NCBI GenBank assembly: GCA_948144175.1
Contig: CANXME010002283.1
Coordinates: 247,669-311,668, forward strand
DNA: 64,000 bases
From: Closterium sp. NIES-65
Lineage: Eukaryota > Streptophyta > Zygnematophyceae > Desmidiales > Closteriaceae
Direction of reading: 5' to 3'
The notes beneath the pieces were generated by a model, which worked only from the letters and a program-made list of their open reading frames with translations, did not search any database and had not been told where the DNA came from. Shown here piece by piece: positions 6,481 to 52,801 of the stretch (positions are counted from its first letter, which is position 1; every line of letters starts with the position of its first letter). Made by a program: the position numbers and the translations under genes.

Positions 6481-6550
6481 CCTCGGTCAGGAGCGACTCG
6501 ATCTTAGGAACCTGCTCAGTGGTGGGCCCTATGAAGTTCCCACTAGGGAA

Positions 6551-8161: not shown

Positions 8162-8505
8162 GTAGGAAACCCTAGTGATTTGAACCCCATAGTGTCTACC
8201 CCACTATAGCCTACACAAGCTATATAATATGAGTTTGACAAGGGTTTGCTATATGTATCCCAACTGCTGCTAGTGAAACCCCTGCTTTCTTCATTTCTCT
8301 CTTGCCTAGCTAGCTAACCCTAGCTATGGCTCCTCACTATGCTTATGATTATGACACTACCAATCTCTAAGGCATCCTATCATATCCATGATCCAGGCCA
8401 ACATAGACTCTGCCGAGCACTTCGTGTCAGTTGGGTTCGGCCTATAGTTTGAGCCTGAACCGCTTCAGAGCCGCCCCACACCAATTGCAACAATTCCAAC
8501 CCACG
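8162..8505. repeat. 343-bp duplication, copy B
   Basis: This matches 6611-6953: a truncated family A LTR end up to GTTTGACA near 8240, then the same 265-bp flank ending CCCACG. After 8505 native DNA follows (CACGTCCCGAGG), whereas copy A is followed by the E2 LTR. Confidence 0.85.
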
Positions 8506-11912: not shown

Positions 11913-11926
11913 TGGTATCGAGCAGG
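11913..11926 (+). other. E4 primer-binding site
   Basis: TGGTATCGAGCAGG follows the LTR directly, as in E7. It resembles the complement of the plant initiator tRNA-Met 3' end. Confidence 0.8.
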
Positions 11927-12129
11927 TTCCCTCGTGGGAACTGTTCCTAGGGCCCACCGATCCTCCCTTTTTTTTTCCTGCCCGGGGCGCGTCCTGCCCC
12001 TGCCCGAAGCGCGCCTAGGGTCGCGCCCTTCTTAGCGGCCCGTCGCGTCGCCCTTAGCGGCCTGTCGCATCGCCCTTAGCGGCCCGTCGCGCCGCCCTTA
12101 CGGCCACGTCGCGCAGCCCTAACGGCCGC

Positions 12130-12850
12130 GTCGCGCCGCCCTTTAACAAGCGGCGCGTCGCCGCCCTTCTCCTGCGGCCCACCGCCCTCAACTGCGGCCC
12201 CGCCGCCCTCATCTGCGATGCCGCCGCCCTCAACTGCTGCGGCCCTGCCGCCTTCAACTGCTGCGGCCCCGCCGCCCTCAACTGCGGCCCCGCCGCCCTT
12301 CTCTGCGGCCCCGCCGCCCTCTGCTGCGGCCCCGCCGCTCTCACCTGCGGCCCCGCCGCTTTCACCTGCGGCCCCGCCGCCCTCAACTACTGCGGCCCCG
12401 CCGCCCTCAACTGCTGCGGCCCCGCCGCCCTCAACTGCGGCCCCGCCGCCCTCAACTGCAGCGGCCCCGCCGCCCTCAACTGCGGCCCCGCCGCCATCAA
12501 CTGCTGCGGCCCCGCCGCCCTTCTTTGCGGCCCCGCCGCCCTCTGCTGCAGCCCCGCCGCCCTCACTTGCGGCCGAGCCGCTTTCACCTGCGGCCCCGCC
12601 CCTCTCGTTGGCGGCCCCGCCGCCCTCACCTGCGGCCCCGTCACCTGCTGCAGCGCCGCCCGCCGCCCGGGTTTCCCGACCCGTCCCACCCAGCCGAGCA
12701 GCCGACCGCCGCGCCGCCCTGCAGCAGCACCGCCGAGCCGCTCAGCAGCCGAGCACCCGAGCCGCCCTGCAGCCGAGCCACCCAGCAACCGAGCCGCCCT
12801 GCAGCTGAGCCGCCCAGCCGCCGAGCCGCACTGCAGCCAAGCCGCCCAGC
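12130..12850 (+). repeat. E4 leader minisatellites
   Basis: Tandem units built on CTGCGGCCCCGCCGCCCTCAA fill 12170-12660, followed by shorter GCCGAGCCGCCC units to about 12850. Long Pro/Ala/Ser and Arg/Ala/Gly frames on both strands here are repeat by-products. Confidence 0.82.
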
Positions 12851-18866: not shown

Positions 18867-19369
18867 TGTTGGAGAATCGGGTTTCTGCCGCCCCAGCCCT
18901 TTGCACACAAGCAGCAGCAAGGGGGAATGTCGGCGATGAATCAGAGGCTTTGGGAAGTACTTCGAAAGTTCCACCACCAATCAGATTTCAGCCGAAGACT
19001 CGATACAGTTCAAAGCTGCCTTCAAACCGAAGTGTTGGCAGTTTCTACAGGTTTCTACACATCAGAATCAGCTATAACAGAAATATCCAGAGTTTTCTCA
19101 TTCATGCACCTCATGTGGCACTCAAAGTCACTCAAGGTCCATCCAATCTAGATTGTGCCCAAGTTACCAGGGAAGTTACATTGTCTATCAGCCTAGTTTG
19201 AGCTTTCAATCTGTCTTGTTTGTGATGCCTATAGAGTTGTGCTTTAGTGGGCTTGTTAATCTTGAACATAGTGAAGTTTTACCTCATCCAGTCAATTCCA
19301 GCAGCCCTGCTAAGACTTTCCAGCCAAGTTCCAGCCCTCCAGTAGTCACAGCTACTCTGTTTTACAATT
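18867..19369 (+). repeat. E5 5' LTR
   Basis: It begins TGTTGGAGAATCGGG. The canonical CA end is at 19366 (TTTTACA); three more bases (ATT) precede the primer-binding site. Matching the flanking ATATT duplication suggests that the LTR includes these three bases. Confidence 0.88.
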
Positions 19370-19384
19370 TGGTATTAGAGCTCG
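19370..19384 (+). other. E5 primer-binding site
   Basis: TGGTATTAGAGCTCG is complementary to the plant initiator tRNA-Met 3' end with one mismatch in the first 12 bases. Confidence 0.85.
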
Positions 19385-19435
19385 TCGTTTCGATCAACCT
19401 AGCCCACCACCTTCCTATCCTAGCACCATACGAAC

Positions 19436-22000: not shown

Positions 22001-22139
22001 TGTCAGAGGTCCACTGGTGATCCCCGATCGATCCTAGGGAAGGGTTACAGGCACATTTGCCTGGGGGGTTATGGGCGCACTGACCCGCTACTGAAACAAG
22101 CCCTTTTATCCCAATGGTCTAGTGGTTGGGATTCTGAGA
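22001..22139 (+). repeat. TRIM left LTR
   Basis: 139 bp, TGTCAGAGG to TCTGAGA. It contains a pol III A-box-like stretch, TGGTCTAGTGG, at 22115-22125. Confidence 0.92.
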
Positions 22140-22172
22140 TGGTATCAGAGCGAAGGTCTCGGGTTCGAATCC
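22115..22172 (+). promoter_or_regulatory. Possible pol III A and B boxes across the TRIM LTR/internal boundary
   Basis: TGGTCTAGTGG (22115-22125) fits the tRNA A box, and GGTTCGAATCC (22162-22172) fits the B box, with tRNA-like spacing. The A box lies in the LTR and the B box in the internal region, so only the full element carries both. Whether they are transcribed is unknown. Confidence 0.5.
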
Positions 22173-22208
22173 CGGTGTATGCACTTCGGGCATCCCAGTG
22201 CGGGGGGG

Positions 22209-22347
22209 TGTCAGAGGTCCACTGGTGATCCCCGATCGATCCTAGGGAAGGGTTACAGGCACATTTGCCTGGGGGGTTATAGGCGCACTGACCCGCTACT
22301 GAAACAAGCCCTTTTATCCCAATGGTCTAGTGGTTGGGATTCTGAGA
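22209..22347 (+). repeat. TRIM right LTR
   Basis: 139 bp, one base different from the left copy (the ATGGGCGC/ATAGGCGC site), followed directly by the target duplication GACAT (22348-22352). Confidence 0.92.
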
Positions 22348-22690
22348 GACATGTCCCTTGCAGGTTGGCATAAGTTTTCCTCTTCCTCCTCTCTACCCTC
22401 TATCCAACAGGAACCAGCAAGCGCACATGAGGAAACAACACAAGAGGAGGAAGAAGATGACACCGATTCTGACCATAGCGGACCGATCATCGATCTCCCT
22501 CAAGCCGTCGTCAACGAGTCCAGCCGTGCCACGCCATTGCCACCAGCAGCTCCTCAACCAAGTGGAGATGAAGTTCAGCCATCAAATGAAGACAATCCAC
22601 CGCAGCAAGTCACCGTTCCATCACCACCAAAGGAGCAGCAGCCAACAGTCACAAACCAGCCAGCTATATCAACACCAACCTCACAATTTC
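22348..22690 (+). pseudogene. pol: E5 integrase-RT linker, left part
   Basis: Between the TRIM and E6 lies low-complexity polyprotein linker rich in Glu, Pro, Gln and Ser (EETTQEEEEDDTDSDHSG and PPKEQQPTV motifs). It continues on the far side of E6 at 29461. Confidence 0.75.
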
Positions 22691-23662
22691 TGTTAACAGG
22701 AATGGAGTGTTGGCCCCGCCCTCGCTTGGGCAACGCCGACGACTTGGTCGGATGTACGGGAGTAGCAACCGACCGTTCACAGTGGGAGAGCTGCTTGACA
22801 CGCTTCGTCGAGCTGCAGGGGACCGCTGTGGTGTTGCTGTCGACTAGGGAGCTCGACAGCTGCAACTGACTGGTCTAGGCGACGGGTGGGACGTCGACCA
22901 GGACCTGCAGTTCGACCGGGAGGTCGACGGAGCAGTCCGTCGACCTGACAAGTGAGCAGCGGTCGACGAGGGGAGCTCGGCGACAACCGCTGATGGCTCT
23001 GGTCGACGGAAGGGGTCCGTCGACCAGGGGGTAGCTCGACGGGAGTTGTGGTCGACCAGAGGGACCTGGTGGTCGACCGGAAGCACCTGGTGGTCGACCG
23101 GGTCGACTAGGTAACCTGCTCGACGAGTTCTGCGGAGGCACGCGAACGTCGTCGAGGTTGCGATGGCGCAGGCGACTGCGGGCTGGTATCCCGGAGTCGA
23201 TATGGCTCGTCAGGCGCAGACAACAGCCGACGAATGCCCAACGAGGCAAGTCGGGCCAATCGTCTGCGCACACCTGCGAGCGTGCACACTGCTGTGTTCT
23301 ACGGGGCAACGCTGGACAGCTGCTCTGCTGCAGCGTTGGCACGCCGTCGACCTGCTCCGTTGGCAGGTCGCCTTTCTGCAGTGCTGGCGCGGCTCCTCTA
23401 CGCAACGCTGGCAGGCGGTCGACCGAGCTGTGCTGGCGGCCGACCAGGCTAGCAGCAGGGTTGCTAGGTGCCTGATGTAATCATTGTTGTGATCTCTTGT
23501 TGTACTGATTCTGGAATTCCAACTTTGCTAGTGGAAACTCTTGCCAATTTCTCCCGTGAATGTGCAAACACTAAGGAACCAAGCAAAGCTACGATCACCT
23601 CTAGTAGTTTGTGCCAACCCCCTGTAGTCTAGCTCATTACCGTTGTAGAGTGTATCTCCGCA
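22691..23662 (+). repeat. E6 5' LTR (972 bp)
   Basis: TGTTAACAGGAATGG to TATCTCCGCA. I count 13 GTCGAC hexamers in it by eye. Confidence 0.93.
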
Positions 23663-23701
23663 TGGTGCGGTGAGCGTGGATCGAACACGCGACCTTCAGA
23701 T
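23663..23701 (+). other. E6 primer-binding site: 39-nt complement of tRNA-Phe
   Basis: From the first base after the LTR, 39 consecutive bases are complementary to the 3' half of plant cytosolic tRNA-Phe(GAA) as I recall its sequence. They cover positions 76 (the terminal A of CCA) back to 38, including the T arm. The match ends at 23702, opposite tRNA base 37, which is the hypermodified wybutosine site. Ordinary primer-binding sites are 10-18 nt. Confidence 0.85.
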
Positions 23702-23936
23702 TGGAGCCGACTTTTGCACCTACTAAGTCGTTCGTAGGCCGGCAGCAGCGATAGTCGCCATGGTCGACCCCGTAGTTGATGCGGGTGTAGCGGACACCTT
23801 GGAGGCACGTTTGGCTGACGCGAGGAGACGCCACGCGGATGGTGAGTACGGGACGATCCCCTTGGTGATCGCCGAGTTGGGCATCCGGTCGTAGTGGGCG
23901 ACGGAACACACTTCCCGTCCTACTTCTCCTCGACCG

Positions 23937-26501
23937 GTGCGCAACGAAGGTGGCGTCGACGACGAGGTCGACGGTGGTGCACGAGTCAGCGGCAGCGAAG
24001 GCACGAGGCAGAGAGGAGTGATCAAGGTCGACGGTGGTGTCGACGGAATCCAGGCGCGAGTGCAGCGGTCGACGGCTGCTGCAGGGAGCTCGCGTGCCGA
24101 CGTCGATGTTCGACGCCGTTCTCCTCCACGAAGGGGTGGAGGGCTCTCGGTGACGACACACGTGACGGCACGCGGGATTGCACCGGCGTATGGCTACTTC
24201 AAGTTCTCGCCGGACCGGATCGCCGTCGCACCGCTGCAAGGTCGACAGGACCTCATCGCCTGGAGGGAGTCGATTGAACCTCAGCTAGAGGTCGTCGGGC
24301 TGAAGGGCTTCGCCGATGGCACCGTGCCCTTTCCGCCCGAGGAGGATGTCGAGCTACGCGGGGAGTTTCGTTCTGCTCACCTGCTCACCTTCATGGTCAT
24401 CTCGAGGTGCTGCTCGCCAGTGGTGCAGCTAGCGCTCAGGAGCTGTCGAGAGCGACTGGATGCTGGTCACCAGGCATGGCATTTCATCATGTCGACGTAC
24501 CAGGCCAGGGACGACCTGTACATCGGACAGCTAGAGGAGAAGATGACTCACATTCGAATGGGCGAGCAGGAGTCGGCGACGGACTACTGCAACCAAGCTC
24601 GACGGATCCTAGCTGAGATAAGGATGGCGGGCGCCGAATACTCGACGGCGTCCTACATCACCCACGTCCTCAAGGGCCTGCCGCGCAGCTACAACCTCAT
24701 GAAGAGGTTTACGATGGTGCCCGGCACACGTGAGTCCCTCGACGAGGACTCCCTTACCAGCTACATCCTCCAGGATGAGGCGATGCAGGAAGCAGAGCAG
24801 CCCACGGAGTTCCTTCCGCAGGCGAGTTTCGCTGCCCCGACGAAGCCAAATAGTCAGCAGGAGCAGCACGGGAAGCCAGGCGGAGGTGGTAGCGGAGGTG
24901 GGCGGTCGACGAAGGACGTCGACGAGAAGAGGTCGACGCGGGACAAGGGTCGACGAGGTGGTGGTCGACGGCGGGAGTGTTGGATCTGCGGCGACCCCGA
25001 CCATCTCTCCTTCGAGTGCCCCGACCGCGATGACAGCGACGAGGACGACAACAAGGAAGGCCGCGGTCGATCGGCCAGTCGTCGCCCCCGTCGAGTTGAG
25101 AAGCCGCGCAAGGAGAAGCAAGCGTCGAAGAAGACGTCCTTGACAAAGGGCGTCGACAGCTCCAGCGGCAAGAGCCGAGGCGACGGGGAGGTGTCGTGCT
25201 CGATGGTCGGCGTGGTGGAGCCGACGGTCTCGCTAGCACCGGAGGCTGGCGAGGACTTCCAAGCGGTGGCAGCAGCTGTGCAGGCCAACCCGGTCTCGCT
25301 AGCACCAGAGGCGCTGGCTGTCGTGCACATTGACTTGTGCGGGCCATTTCGAGTAGCTGCCAAGGATGGCAGCCTGTACTTCCTGCTGCTGAAGGATCGC
25401 CATACTCGATTTGTATGGACAATGCCGGTCGCTCGGAAGAGCGACGTGCTGCGGGAGTTCCAGCGGTGGCTGGTGCTGGTGGAACGGCAGACGAAGAAGT
25501 CGGTGCTGTCGCTTCGCTCTGATCGAGGAGGGGAGTTCCTCGGGAAGGCGTTCACCGACTTCGTCGACGGGAAGGGCATCGTCCACGACCTGACGTGCCC
25601 CTACACTCCGCAGCAGAATGGCATGGCTGAGCGGGAGATGCGCACGGCCGTCCAGTCCGTGCGGACGATGTTGCTGCACATGGGCGTGCAGCACCACTGG
25701 TGGCACCTTGCACTACGACAAGCTGTCTGGGTGCGCAACTGCTTGGAGCGGTCGACGACGCCGCCGAGGACGACTCCGTACCAGCTGCTGACCGGGCAGA
25801 AGCCCGACCTTACGCTGGCGCGGGTGTGGGGCTGCATGGTGCAGTTCATGGTTCCCGAGCAGCAACGTGGTGGGAAGCTGGCGCCGAAGGCTCGCTGGGG
25901 ACTTCACCTTGGTGTGTCGCCAGAGAGCAAGGGTTGGGAAGTGCTCGACCTGACCGACAACAAGGTGGTCACGTCGGTTGAGGTGATCTTCTACGAGACG
26001 CTGTCGCTGGAGGTGTGGAAGGCGAATTATGGGCCGGCGTCGAAGCAGACGCAGGCGCACCCGCCAATGGATACATCGACAGCGACGGTTCCGTTGCTCG
26101 CCGAAGTCGACGAACCCGGTGATAAGGATGTTGTGGAGGTTCTTTCCCCTCCCCCTGTCTTTGCTCCTCCGTTCCCCGTCGCAGATCGGCCTGGGTCGGC
26201 ACCTGTGTCGCCCACCGACGATGAGGGGAGCCTTGAGGCGTCGCCTGTGGCGCCGGCCCATGGCATCGTCGGCGGTCGACAGGGTGCAAAGCTTGTCGAC
26301 CAAGATGGCAAGCCGACGACGACAAGGGAGCACCAGACACGGGAGCCGGTCGAACAGGAGGCAACGGCAGGGGTACACTCGACAGGGGAGCAGCAGCCGG
26401 AGCGGTCGACAGGAGAGTTGTCGAAGGCAGCAGCATACGAACAGCCGGTCGAAGGGTCGAAGCAGCTGGTCGATGACGTTCTCGTCGACGAGAAAGGTTA
26501 G
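23937..26501 (+). pseudogene. gag: E6 Gag and integrase region
   Basis: One long open stretch holds the Gag domain (LIAWRESIEPQLEVVGLKGF, LDAGHQAWHFIMSTYQARDD, EEKMTHIRMGEQESATDYCN), a Gly/Arg/Asp-rich segment, and a canonical zinc knuckle CWICGDPDHLSFEC (about 24979-25020). The integrase core follows: VHIDLCGPFRVAAKDGS, LRSDRGGEFLGKAF and PQQNGMAEREMRTAV. The C-terminal motif RVWGCMVQFMVPEQQRG and a Pro/Val/Glu-rich linker come last. The true start is not fixed; an upstream ATG at 23759 begins a short frame in the same region. The copy is a fossil. Confidence 0.83.
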
Positions 26502-26537
26502 CAGTCGGCGGGTGAGGAGTCCACCGACAGCGATGTA

Positions 26538-28354
26538 ATGGAAGTGCCGATCACGAAGCCCGAGCTGCAACGCACAGGTCGAGCTCGACGGCCGCCGGAG
26601 CGGTTGAGCTTCCACGCCTGCCTACTGCCAGCTGCCTTCACCACGGTGTACGACGAGGTCGACGACGACCTGCTGTACGACGATGCCGAGGAGGATGAAG
26701 ACCAGCCGGAGCTCGACCCTGACGTGCATGCCGACCCCGAACACCGCTGGGACATCGCCACGATGACGGTGAAGGAGGCGCTGTCGAGCTGGAAGGGCGA
26801 GGCGGTGAAGGCCGCCATGGAAGAAGAAATCCGTAGCCTCATCGCTATGGGGACTTGGGAGCTGGTCGAACGCCCACGCGGGGTGAACATCATGAAGAAC
26901 CGATGGGTGCTGACGACCAAGTACCGCATCGACGACACCGTCGAGCGCGAGAAGGCGAGGCTAGTCGTGAAGGGCTTCACGCAGGTGTACGGCGCCGACT
27001 ACGACGAGACGTACTCACCGGTGAGCAGCTACGTCACGCTGAGGATCTTCCTCAGCATCATCGCCGTCCTTGATCTCAACCTGATGCAGCTCGACATGAA
27101 GAACGCTTTCCTGTAGAGCAAGCTCGACAGGGTGCTCTACATGTACAAGCCGGACTACTTCAATGACGGGACCGGCCGGGTGTGTAAGCTGCTGAAGAGC
27201 CTCTACGGGCTGAAGTAGTCGCCGCTGCTGTGGTACAGGGCTCTCGACGGTGTGCTGCTGGGCGCTGGCTGGAAGAAGAGCCAGGTCGACGAGGCGCTCT
27301 ACTTCAAGGCCAGCGATGACGGAGTGACCTGCTGGGTGCTGGTCTACGTCGACGACCTGCTTGCCGCTGGCAGCAGCACCGCGATGCTGAAGGAGCTGAA
27401 GGAGCTGCTCGAGAGCGCCTTCGAGCTACGTGAGATCTCGCCGGTGGTGAAGTACCTTGGGCTGGAGATCGTGCGCGACAGGCCGGCCAGGAAGTTGTGG
27501 CTGCACCAGCAGGGCTACGCCGACAAGCTACACAGGCGCTTCATCGACGAAGAGCAGGGCGGTTGAGTCCCGAAGACACCGGTCTCGGTCGACGCCTACG
27601 CTCAGCTGACGTTTGATGACGAGGAGGCTCAGGAGCGCGAAGAGGAGGAGTACTGGTAGAAGGTCGGCTCGCTGCAGTTCGCGGCGACGACGACAAGGCC
27701 GGACATCGCGTTTGCCTACAGCAAGCTGGGAAGTGGCCTCACGGTGAGGAGCAACCAGCATTGGCGCGAGGTCGACCGCTGCCTTGCCTACCTCGCCGAC
27801 ACCCGCGATACCGCCTTGGAGTTCGGCGGTGGACCAGAATCATTGGAGCTGATCGGCTACGTCGATGCCAATGACGCGGGCGACAAGCAAAACCGGACGA
27901 GCACGGGAGGCTACGTGTTGGTCTACGGTGGGGCCGCAGTCTCCTAGTCGAGTTCACGCATCAAGTGCGCGACATTGTCATCGACCGAGTCCGAGTACGT
28001 GGCGGCCACGGATGCTGGCAAGGAGGGGCGTCGACTCCGCTTCCTCCTTGCGGAATTCAAGCTCCTCGACACTGGGAAGCCGACCATCCTCCGCGTCGAC
28101 AACAAGTCGGCAATCACGGTCGCTGAGGGCTTGGGGCTGACGGCAACCTCAAGCACATGGAGCGACGCTACGCCTGGCTGCAACACATGGTGAGGCGCGG
28201 GAAATTTGTGCTGAAATACATCCCGACCACCGAGCAGCCGGCGGACTTCCTGACGAAGGCGCTGCATTTTCCGGCTTTCAACCGGTGCTCGGTCGCCATC
28301 GGCCAAGTTCGTCTGGCCGGCGTCGGCGACGGCGACGATGAGGTGCAGCAGTAG
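26538..28354 (+). pseudogene. pol: E6 RT and RNase H region
   Basis: RT begins with SSWKGEAVKAAMEEEIRSLI and GTWELVERPRGVNIMKNRWV. It shows KARLVVKGFTQVYGADYDET, LMQLDMKNAFL, and the polymerase loop CWVLVYVDDLLAAGSS (about 27330-27370), then VKYLGLEIVRDRPARKLWLH. RNase H signatures are GYVDANDAGDKQNRTSTGGY, SSTESEYVAATDAGKEGRRL and ILRVDNKSAITVAEG. The tail FVLKYIPTTEQPADFLTKAL ends near 28354. It is broken in a handful of places. Confidence 0.85.
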
Positions 28355-28469
28355 GTGCCGTGCCCTTTTGCACGGCTGGTGCGGTGACGGTGTGCTGTGT
28401 GTGGGGTGCACGCCGAGGATGAGTTTTCTCCGTGGAGTACTGCCGTGTGGGCTGGAGGCCCAAGCGTGA

Positions 28470-28483
28470 GCGCGGCAGGGGAG
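28470..28483 (+). other. E6 polypurine tract
   Basis: GCGCGGCAGGGGAG immediately precedes the 3' LTR, the usual place for plus-strand priming. Confidence 0.75.
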
Positions 28484-29455
28484 TGTTAACAGGAATGGAG
28501 TGTTGGCCCAGCCCTCGCTTGGGCAACGCCGACGACTTGGTCGGATGTACGGGAGTAGCAACCGACTGTTCACAGTGGGAGAGCTGCTCGACAGGCTTCG
28601 TCGAGCTGCAGGGGACCGCTGTGGTGTTGCTGTCGACTAGGGAGCTCGACAGCTGCAACTGACTGGTCTGGGCGACGGGTGGGACGTCGACCAAGACCTG
28701 TAGTTCGACCGGGAGGTCGACGGAGCAGTCCGTCGACCTGACAAGTGAGCAGCGGTCGACGAGGGGAGCTCGGCGACAACCGCTGATGGCTCTGGTCGAC
28801 GGAAGGGGTCCGTCGACCAGGGGGTAGCTCGACGGGAGTTATGGTCGACCAGAGGGACCTGGTGGTCGACCGGAAGCACCTGGTGGTCGACCGGGTCGAC
28901 TAGGTAACCTGCTCGACGAGTTCTGCGGAGGCACGCGAACGTCGTCGAGGTTGCGATGGCGCAGGCGACTGCGGGCTGGTATCCCGGAGTCGATATGGCT
29001 CGTCAGGCGCAGACAACAGCCGACGAATGCCCAACGAGGCAAGTCGGGCCAATTGTCTGCGCACACCTGCGAGCGTGCACACTGCTGTGTTCTACGGGGC
29101 AACGCTGGACAGCCGCTCTGCTGCAGCGTTGGCACGCCGTCGACCTGCTCCATTGGCAGGTCGCCTTTCTGCAGTGCTGGCGCGGCTCCTCTACGCAACG
29201 CTGGCAGGCGGTCGACCGAGCTGTGCTGGCGGCCGACCAGGCTAGCAGCAGGGTTGCTAGGTGCCTGATGTAATCATTGTTGTGATCTCTTGTTGTACCG
29301 ATTCTGGAATTCCAACTTTGCTAGTGGAAACTCTTGCCAATTTCTCCCGTGAATGTGCAAACACTAAGGAACCAAGCAAAGCTACGATCACCTCTAGTAG
29401 TTTGTGCCAACCCCCTGTAGTCTAGCTCACTACCGTTGTAGAGTGTATCTCCGCA
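28484..29455 (+). repeat. E6 3' LTR (972 bp)
   Basis: Same length as the 5' LTR and about 1.3% different. It is followed by the ATTTC target duplication. Confidence 0.93.
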
Positions 29456-29460
29456 ATTTC

Positions 29461-32088: not shown

Positions 32089-32592
32089 TGTTGGAGAATC
32101 GAGTTTCTGCCGCCCCAGCCCTTTGCACACAAGCAGCAGCAAGGGGGAATGTCGGCGATGAATCAGAGGCTTCGGGAAGTACTTCGAAAGTTCCACCACC
32201 AATCAGATTTCAGCCGAAGACTCGATATAGTTCAAAGCTGCCTTCAAACCGAAATGTTGGCAGTTTCTACAGGTTTCTACACATCAGAATCAGCTATAAC
32301 AGAAATATCCAGAGTTTTCTTATTCATGCACCTCATGTGGCACTCAAAGTCACTCAAGGTCCATCCAATCTAGATTGTGCCCAAGTTACCAGGGAAGTTA
32401 CATTGTCTATCAGCCTAGTTTGAGCTTTCAATCTGTCTTGTTTGTGATGCCTATAGAGTTGTGCTTTAGTGGGCTTGTTAATCTTGAACATAGTGAAGTT
32501 TTACCTCATCCAGTCAATTCCAGCAGCCCTGCTAAGACTTTCCAGCCAAGTTTCCAGCCCTCTAGTAGTCACAGGTACTGTGTTTTACAAGT
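32089..32592 (+). repeat. E5 3' LTR
   Basis: TGTTGGAGAATCGAG to TTTTACAAGT, about 2% different from the 5' copy. ATATT at 32593-32597 repeats the 5 bp before the 5' LTR. Confidence 0.88.
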
Positions 32593-35514: not shown

Positions 35515-35528
35515 TGGTATCGAGCAGG
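35515..35528 (+). other. E7 primer-binding site
   Basis: TGGTATCGAGCAGG directly follows the LTR. It is a near match to the complement of the initiator tRNA-Met 3' end; the following GTTCCC also echoes that complement. Confidence 0.82.
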
Positions 35529-35629
35529 TTCCCCCGTGGGAACTGTGCCTAGGGCCCACCACATCGACATTTTTTTTTTTTCCTGCCCGAAGCGCACTCC
35601 GCCCGAGTCGCACTTCGTCGAGCCGCCCT

Positions 35630-36410
35630 AGCGGCCCTTTCCCCTAGCGGCCCCGCCGCACGTCGCCTCGGCCCCGCCGCCCGTCGCTTCGGTCCCGCCG
35701 CCCGTCGTCGCGGCCCCGCCGCCCTACCTCGCGGCCCCGCTGCCCTACCTCGCGGCCCCGCCGCCCTACCTCGCGGCCCCGCCGCCCTACCTCGCGGCCC
35801 CGCCGCCCTACTTCGCGGCCCCGCCGCCCTACCTCGCGGCCCCGCCGCCCTACCTCGCGGCCCCGTCACCCTACCTCGCGGCCCCGCCGCCCTACCTCGC
35901 GGCCCCGCCGCCCTGCTCAGCGGCCTCGCCGCCCTTCTGCACCGGCCCCGCCGCCCTACTCCTGCGGACCCGCCGCCCTACTCCTGCGGCCCCGCCACCC
36001 TACTCCCGCGGCCCCACCGCCCTACTCATGCGGCCCCGCCGCCCTACTCCTGCGGCCCCGCCGCCCTACTCCTGCGGCCCCGCCACCCTACTCCTGCGGC
36101 CCCGCCGCCCTACTCCTGCGGCCCCGCCGCCCTACTCCTGCGGCCCCGCCGCCCTACTCCTGCGGCCCCGCCGCCCTACTCCTACGGGCCCGCCACCCTA
36201 CTCCTGCGGCCCCGCCGCCCTACTCAGCGGCCCCGCCACCGTTCACCAGCGGCCCTGCCGCCCTACACCGCCCGCGCCGCCCGAGCTGCCACAACAGCCC
36301 GAGCCGCCCGAGCCGCCCGAGCCGCCTGAGACACCCGAGCCGCCCGAGTCGCCCGAGCCGCCCGAGCCGCCCGAACCGTCCGAGCCGCCCGAGCCGCCTG
36401 ATTAGCCGAG
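35630..36410 (+). repeat. E7 leader minisatellites (21- and 22-bp units)
   Basis: Around 35725-35930 a 21-bp unit (CCGCCCTACCTCGCGGCCC core) repeats about nine times. Around 35950-36230 a 22-bp unit (CCGCCCTACTCCTGCGGCCC core) takes over. 36297-36400 has 9-bp CCCGAGCCG units. The period changes from a multiple of three to a non-multiple, which argues against coding. Confidence 0.85.
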
Positions 36411-49579: not shown

Positions 49580-50170
49580 GAACAGTAGCAGTAGTAGCAG
49601 TAGCAGTTGAAGCAGTAGTACGACAGGAACAGGTACAGGAGTTGCTGCAGGTGGGGCACAGTAGGGCGGCGCGGCTCAGTTCGGGCGGCGCGGCTCGGTT
49701 CGGGAGGCGCGGCTCGGTTCGGGCGGCGCGGCTTGGCTCGGGCTGGGCTACGCGGCGGTGCATGACGAGGGGCGTGCGCATGGGCGGCTTTAGCGGGCGG
49801 GCCGCGGCTGTGCGTGGGCCTGACTAGCGTGCGGGCGAGCGGCCTAGGGGAGCGACGCGGCGGCCTACTGGCGGGGCCGCGACGCTCTGGTCGCGCTGGC
49901 TGCGACCTGAGGGCGGGCGGCTGAGGGTCGCGCGTCGGCCTAGGGGCGAGCGCGGCCTACGGGCGACGGCCTGCTGGGGCTCGCGAGAAAAAAAATCGGG
50001 CCGCCCTAGGCGGCGATTTTCCTACGCGCGCTAAAACGACGGGGCCGCGCTCGGGCTGCACGAGAGGAGAGCGCACGAGGGCGCACTAGGGGAGAAGCGC
50101 ACGAGGGCGCTAAAAAAGGGCGCACGAGGGCACCTCTAGCAGTACGGTGGGCCCTTAGGTATAGAACCTA
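49580..50170 (-). repeat. E8 leader, GC-rich
   Basis: Contains GCGGCGCGGCTCGGTTCGG repeats (49670-49740) and GCGCACGAGGGCGC repeats (50070-50130). It is shorter and less regular than the other family A leaders. Confidence 0.7.
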
Positions 50171-50183
50171 AGCTCTGATACCA
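50171..50183 (-). other. E8 primer-binding site
   Basis: TGGTATCAGAGCT, a perfect 12-nt complement of the plant initiator tRNA-Met 3' end, directly inside the 5' LTR. Confidence 0.88.
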
Positions 50184-52646: not shown

Positions 52647-52801
52647 TTCCCAAGTGGGAACGCTACCTAGGGCCCACCATGATTTTTTTTTCTGCCCGGA
52701 GTGCGCCTTAGACTAGACCGAGTCGCGCGCGCCCCGTGTGCCCTCCCTACCGTCGCGCCGCCCTTTGTGGCCCCTTGCGCTGCTCGTCGACCCCACGTGC
52801 C

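Follow-up and report, generated by a model that had tools for sequence, protein, structure and literature searches.

A Ty1/copia retrotransposon of Closterium sp. NIES-65 with a 39-nt primer-binding site apparently complementary to the 3' half of tRNA-Phe

Structure and classification of E6

The stretch of DNA analyzed here, in the following called the window, comprises 64 kb from Closterium sp. NIES-65 and is a nest of copia-type elements. One of these, termed E6, is a Ty1/copia LTR retrotransposon at 22691-29455 and is nested inside an older copia element, the LTRs of which are located at 18867-19367 and 32089-32590 and are 98.2% identical. The 5' LTR (22691-23662) and the 3' LTR (28484-29455) of E6, both on the forward strand, are 972 bp long each, start with TG and end with CA, and self-comparison together with LTR comparison revealed 98.66% identity with 13 differences, 11 of which are transitions. 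By sequence inspection, ATTTC was found on both flanks (22686-22690 and 29456-29460), representing a 5-bp target site duplication.

The coding order on the forward strand, as obtained with Pfam, is a gag-like region, an integrase core followed by an SH3-like domain, and the first part of a reverse transcriptase of the copia type. The gag-like region (Retrotran_gag_2, 24462-24788, E 6.6e-06) scores 26.1 bits, slightly below the curated cut-off of 27. The integrase core (rve) lies at 25311-25610 (E 2.2e-11), the retroviral SH3-like domain at 25791-26003 (E 1.7e-18) and the reverse transcriptase start (RVT_2) at 26853-27113 (E 1.5e-18), with its frame broken at 27114. Directly 5' of the 3' LTR, a purine-rich stretch at 28474-28483 (9/10 purines, forward strand) is presumed to be the polypurine tract. 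Membership of Ty1/copia follows from the paired LTRs with the 5-bp target site duplication and from the integrase lying 5' of the copia-type RVT_2. A complete open gag-pol with protease was not found in E6, which bears on its autonomy and not on the superfamily: five in-frame stops, located from 27114 to 27947, interrupt the reverse transcriptase (stretch examined 27051-28000), and in the two open pieces scanned with Pfam, 23895-26501 and 26502-27116, no protease was matched at E 0.001.

The primer-binding site and its border

The 5' LTR of E6 ends with CTCCGCA at 23662 and the primer-binding site (PBS) begins at the next base without a spacer. Its 39 bases (23663-23701, forward strand) match the complement of nucleotides (nt) 76-38 of plant tRNA-Phe(GAA) at 39 of 39 positions without a gap, the reference being a generic plant sequence. 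A preliminary description of this DNA had placed such a complement directly after the 5' LTR, and its coordinates proved exact. We take the 39 bases to correspond to the 3' half of plant tRNA-Phe(GAA) on the basis of this reference; irrespective of it, they display CCA as well as a T stem of 5 bp that encloses TTCGATC and pairs perfectly, and so represent a tRNA 3' half. The anticodon is absent from the site because the match stops before it. As a partial check on the presumed identity, the 5' half of the reference was joined to the complement of the 39 bases, and ARAGORN recognized the joined molecule as a single tRNA-Phe(gaa), the acceptor stem of which contains one G.A. A literature search for the sequence letters of tRNA-Phe found no paper.

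Numbered according to the plant tRNA-Phe reference, positions 23663-23680 (forward strand) correspond to nt 76-59 and constitute the usual 18-nt PBS reaching up to m1A58, and positions 23681-23701 (forward strand) correspond to nt 58-38, i.e., complementarity runs 21 nt beyond the 18-nt PBS as in a primer over-extension sequence. The site is about twice as long as usual, in line with the preliminary description. It differs from half-tRNA sites of the hemivirus type in that it starts with the complement of CCA, and it is not bipartite as the sites of the Ty1/Ty3 type: in the E6 RNA after the PBS, the longest exact complement to nt 1-37 of tRNA-Phe is 7 nt, with an average of 8.2 nt in 300 shuffles. 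The site has an alignment score of 78, which was reached by 0/2000 random 90-nt stretches of the window in its own draw (maximum 25). Five other draws of 2000 against tRNA-Phe gave maxima of 78, 25, 78, 62, and 78, and the high values presumably stem from stretches overlapping the E6 site itself. A simple calculation for 60 tRNAs puts the probability that a 39-mer of this kind occurs by chance somewhere in the window at about 2.5e-17.

It had further been stated that the match ends just before nt 37, and this was borne out: nt 38 fits and nt 37 to 23 all miss, 15 in a row. Past the border 8/37 positions fit the tRNA-Phe complement, which is about chance level, and when the 50 bases that follow were aligned with gaps to the remaining part of tRNA-Phe, p values from 0.28 to 0.996 were obtained (eight settings, two nulls). 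As the next positions misfit and a gapped continuation stays at chance level, the border is sharp. A diverged tRNA continuation past nt 38 seemed conceivable on visual inspection and was rejected as not above chance. ARAGORN detected no tRNA genes in the 64-kb window and Rfam gave no match in the window at the gathering threshold. The sole weak Rfam match around the site (E up to 10), Plastid-ycf2, was discarded with 17 bits against a cut-off of 65.7.

Search for sister elements

Within the window, a search with the initial 26 nt of the E6 primer site that allowed 7 mismatches found no other site, and E6, compared in four pieces with the window, gave one match outside E6, a 35-bp integrase match. 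The contig collections searched for sisters of E6 contain viruses and prokaryotes and say nothing on the host genome. The 18-nt site of E6 occurs at 10 loci in viral contigs (longest run 19) and at 16 loci in genome contigs (longest run 20), and 0/10 and 0/16 of these, respectively, continue as primer site. Protein queries against viral contigs, with the gag-integrase region and the reverse transcriptase start of E6 as well as with the reverse transcriptases of two other elements of the window, revealed no relative, and a 32-nt piece of a tRNA-Phe gene gave 0 matches in viral contigs. A PDB sequence search with the reverse transcriptase start of E6 gave 0 matches at E 0.1. In the literature, none of the titles and abstract starts among the matches listed describes a tRNA-Phe site of such length in a copia element of plants, subscription papers lying mostly outside the search.

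Age and decay of E6

With an LTR divergence of 13/972 (0.67% per LTR since insertion), 0.26 changes would be predicted for the 39 nt, so that the site is expected to have stayed unchanged after insertion. For the reverse transcriptase frame of about 1 kb, this divergence corresponds to 0.2-0.3 predicted new stops, against five seen; a divergence of 12-18% would be needed for five stops, a crude figure derived from one short frame. Since the stops exceed the LTR-based prediction, the decay of E6 probably mostly predates its last insertion, and since the reverse transcriptase frame holds more stops than such young LTRs predict, E6 was probably mobilized in trans with the proteins of another element. 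A perfect 39/39 site in a lineage that probably had decayed would be accounted for by rewriting from the tRNA in each cycle or by selection; a recent acquisition of the site would equally explain the perfect match.

iMet-primed copia elements in the same window

Five short-LTR copia copies in the window have an iMet-like PBS, with the exact TGGTATCAGAGC in one of the five, one A fewer in two and slight differences in the other two. When their leaders are aligned, the longest stretch without variation is AGGGCCCACC, present in all five, and all five contain GGGCCCACC 29-38 nt after the PBS start, behind a variable hairpin. On both strands of the 64 kb these are the only occurrences of GGGCCCACC, nine bases that we take to be complementary to nt 34-26 of plant initiator tRNA (iMet). 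On the forward strand, the PBS starts at 11913, 35515, and 52632 are accompanied by the GGGCCCACC box at 11950-11958, 35552-35560, and 52670-52678, respectively, and on the reverse strand the PBS starts at 50183 and 6564 by the box at 50146-50154 and 6521-6529. When 13 LTR match ends were checked, the five with a PBS were the same five with the block, and a short match at 8184-8218 adjoins neither; the five copies are related and hence not independent.

The leader at 35515 aligns with the iMet complement over about 53 nt, and 1/2000 random stretches scores as high. Past the first 12 nt, the scores of the three leaders aligned out of five were reached by 1/2000 (35515), 46/2000 (11913), and 34/2000 (50183) stretches, which makes the case for iMet complementarity strong for 35515 and modest for 11913 and 50183; part of the alignment is a hairpin able to mimic the T arm. 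For comparison, the leader of the older element around E6 gave 5/2000 and that of a miniature element 895/2000. Any 9-mer of the iMet complement is present in about 0.8% of 45-nt stretches of the window (144/18272, the five sites included). Together, GGGCCCACC and the iMet-like PBS may form a primer site in two parts that extends to the anticodon arm. In viral contigs, 0 matches were obtained with a pattern that combines the iMet PBS with GGGCCCACC, and no paper containing both GGGCCCACC and TGGTATCAGAGC was among the matches listed in the literature search.

In the older copia element around E6 (19370-19410), a near-iMet PBS lies two bases after the LTR and is followed by TTTCGATC and then, 32 nt after the PBS start, by GCCCACCAC; both are additional parts of the iMet complement and follow its order. 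The short-LTR copia leaders at about 12260-12630 and 35730-36290 contain similar repeats spaced by about 21-22 bp, visible as offset BLAST matches.

The miniature LTR element at 22001-22347 has LTRs of 139 bp that are 99.3% identical, the target site duplication GACAT and an iMet PBS at 22140. It shows a tRNA-type A box at the LTR end (22115-22125), repeated in the other LTR (22323-22333), and a single B box just 3' of the PBS (22162-22172), which we assigned by motif. The A box precedes and the B box follows the PBS, which is thus enclosed by a presumed pol III promoter. Helenus TRIMs resemble this element, but as described for them the tRNA-like sequence sits in the LTR, and the sole plant Helenus family reported there is from Selaginella (PMC10886601).

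Comparison with known primer systems

A survey of plant elements gives tRNA-Met for all Ty1/copia lineages using complete tRNAs and 1/2tRNA-Met or 1/2tRNA-Ile for those using half-tRNAs (PMC6317226). As far as the survey's lineage assignments go, the earlier view of tRNA-Phe as an atypical copia primer is in line with this; tRNA-Phe is outside its five most frequent primers, which cover about two thirds of the elements, and the search described there, which required a match of 12 bp or more counted from the 3' end of the tRNA, would not have singled out longer ones (PMC6317226). Mouse IAP and IAPE use a tRNA-Phe primer like E6, but these are endogenous retroviruses with an 18-nt PBS (PMC7472051). 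Copia elements with half-tRNA primers (Drosophila copia, Ty5, Osser, Bryco, and Bianca) belong to the Ty1/copia superfamily like E6 and likewise involve the tRNA anticodon region; in their case, however, the PBS matches an end created by cleavage inside the tRNA, whereas that of E6 begins at the CCA terminus.

During retroviral plus-strand synthesis, the attached tRNA is copied from its 3' end up to a halt ahead of m1A58. On native tRNA-Lys3, HIV-1 strong-stop DNA was reported to end mainly at m1A58, with minor products ending at Psi55, m5U54, and ms2t6A37, and strong-stop synthesis was reported to continue upon loss of the m1A58 enzyme (PMC13191261). In lentiviruses and spumaviruses, primer-complementary sequence adjoining the PBS is named primer over-extension sequence, and as in E6 the complement continues past the 18-nt PBS; in contrast to E6, a plant-type copia element with tRNA-Phe and 21 extra nt up to nt 38, the cases described concern T-loop stops at nt 55 and 54 (PMC13191261). 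The minor HIV-1 product P5, ending at ms2t6A37, reflects a halt at the hypermodified base 3' of the anticodon as proposed for E6, but it is an in vitro product that reportedly does not serve, whereas the sequence of E6 matches such a product over its full length (PMC13191261). By analogy, E6 would be an extreme version of over-extension.

Origin of the 39-nt site

Position 37 of tRNA-Phe carries wybutosine or m1G, as may be the case in this host, and m1G37 would likewise block reverse transcriptase. From the site, its place, its border and the surrounding element as observed, we infer read-through of nt 58, a block at nt 37 and use of the resulting product. At a probability of roughly 45%, E6 would be a tRNA-Phe-primed copia element whose PBS became a 39-nt primer over-extension site via strong-stop synthesis ending opposite nt 38. 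In at least one ancestral cycle, plus-strand strong-stop DNA would have been copied from the attached tRNA-Phe past nt 58, and copying would have come to a halt opposite nt 38, with reverse transcriptase blocked by nt 37, be it wybutosine, the m1G precursor or a break at this position. The over-extended copy would have been incorporated into a progeny element, and later E6 RNAs, matching the over-extended product over its full length, could use it in second-strand transfer.

Consistent with strong-stop synthesis, the border lies one base short of nt 37, where a reverse transcriptase halted by base 37 leaves its last base, and by analogy HIV-1 shows the same pair of stops, m1A58 and a hypermodified nt 37 (PMC13191261). 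The coincidence of the border with nt 37 is weak on its own, at about 1 in 58 for the exact place, and several tRNA positions would look meaningful. Against strong-stop synthesis it has to be considered that m1A58 should normally halt it earlier, that a single copy of E6 is known and that the HIV-1 product ending at nt 37 is minor and, as reported, unable to serve in transfer (PMC13191261). The claim of the preliminary description that the polymerase stopped at the bulky base 37 is supported insofar as such a stop is reported, as a minor plus-strand strong-stop product of HIV-1 (PMC13191261); a modification footprint at nt 37 of tRNA-Phe as the source of the border in E6 is plausible and not proven. 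In the account given of yeast Ty1 and Ty3, an altered primer tRNA is not inherited in progeny and plus-strand copying ends after 12 nt of tRNA (PMC5371799). If the plant copia element behaved like Ty1/Ty3, the mechanism first put forward would leave no trace.

A footprint of 39 nt would look alike whether it came from a strong-stop block, from a 3' tRNA-half primer or from a long annealing site under selection. A 3' half of tRNA-Phe cut between nt 37 and 38 could have annealed over 39 nt with the plus strand running off its 5' end; the border falls at precisely this bond and half-tRNA primers are known in Ty1/copia elements (PMC6317226, PMC5371799), but the halves described there prime from the internal cut end, the site of E6 starts at CCA so that an intact tRNA primes equally well, and run-off would still require read-through of m1A58, leaving this origin unlikely. 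Similarly improbable is a selected annealing or recruitment site that pairs with the whole tRNA 3' half without any strong-stop event, nt 38 being the start of the 3' strand of the anticodon arm. Such a site would fit with the second complement to the primer anticodon arm that other copia copies in the window keep and with the bipartite sites used by Ty1 and Ty3 (PMC5371799), but an unbroken match of 39 nt that takes in the T arm and the variable loop seems, in our judgement, beyond the needs of annealing, and the longest complement to nt 1-37 in E6 is below the shuffled mean and leaves it without a second site.

More improbable still is a one-off accident, in which strand transfer would have linked an over-extended plus strand at an arbitrary position, e.g., by microhomology end-joining, and the border would be meaningless. 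The single known copy is compatible with this, and host end joining at PBS microhomology was reported to mediate second-strand transfer (PMC12786077); the absence of any mismatch in a lineage that seems to have decayed before its last jump speaks against it, although acquisition at the last jump escapes this argument. Compared with the half-primer and the annealing site, we tentatively prefer strong-stop synthesis ending at nt 37, at somewhat less than even odds.

Implications for copia elements

Strong-stop synthesis ending at nt 37 may be part of a wider pattern, which we consider doubtful at present: copia elements of this plant-type genome would inherit primer sequence from the tRNA, unlike Ty1/Ty3, and read into the anticodon arm, with E6 preserving, as a genomic fossil, the halt of strong-stop synthesis at the hypermodified nt 37 of tRNA-Phe and the iMet family having kept a second complement, of nine bases, to nt 34-26 of iMet. 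If true, the borders of primer sites across genomes could record tRNA modification. Should the border of E6 be a modification footprint, it would suggest that a copia element can inherit primer sequence, unlike in the Ty1 and Ty3 experiments described; integrated elements would then store in DNA where tRNA modification stopped reverse transcriptase, and such a footprint would be readable in any genome with many copies.
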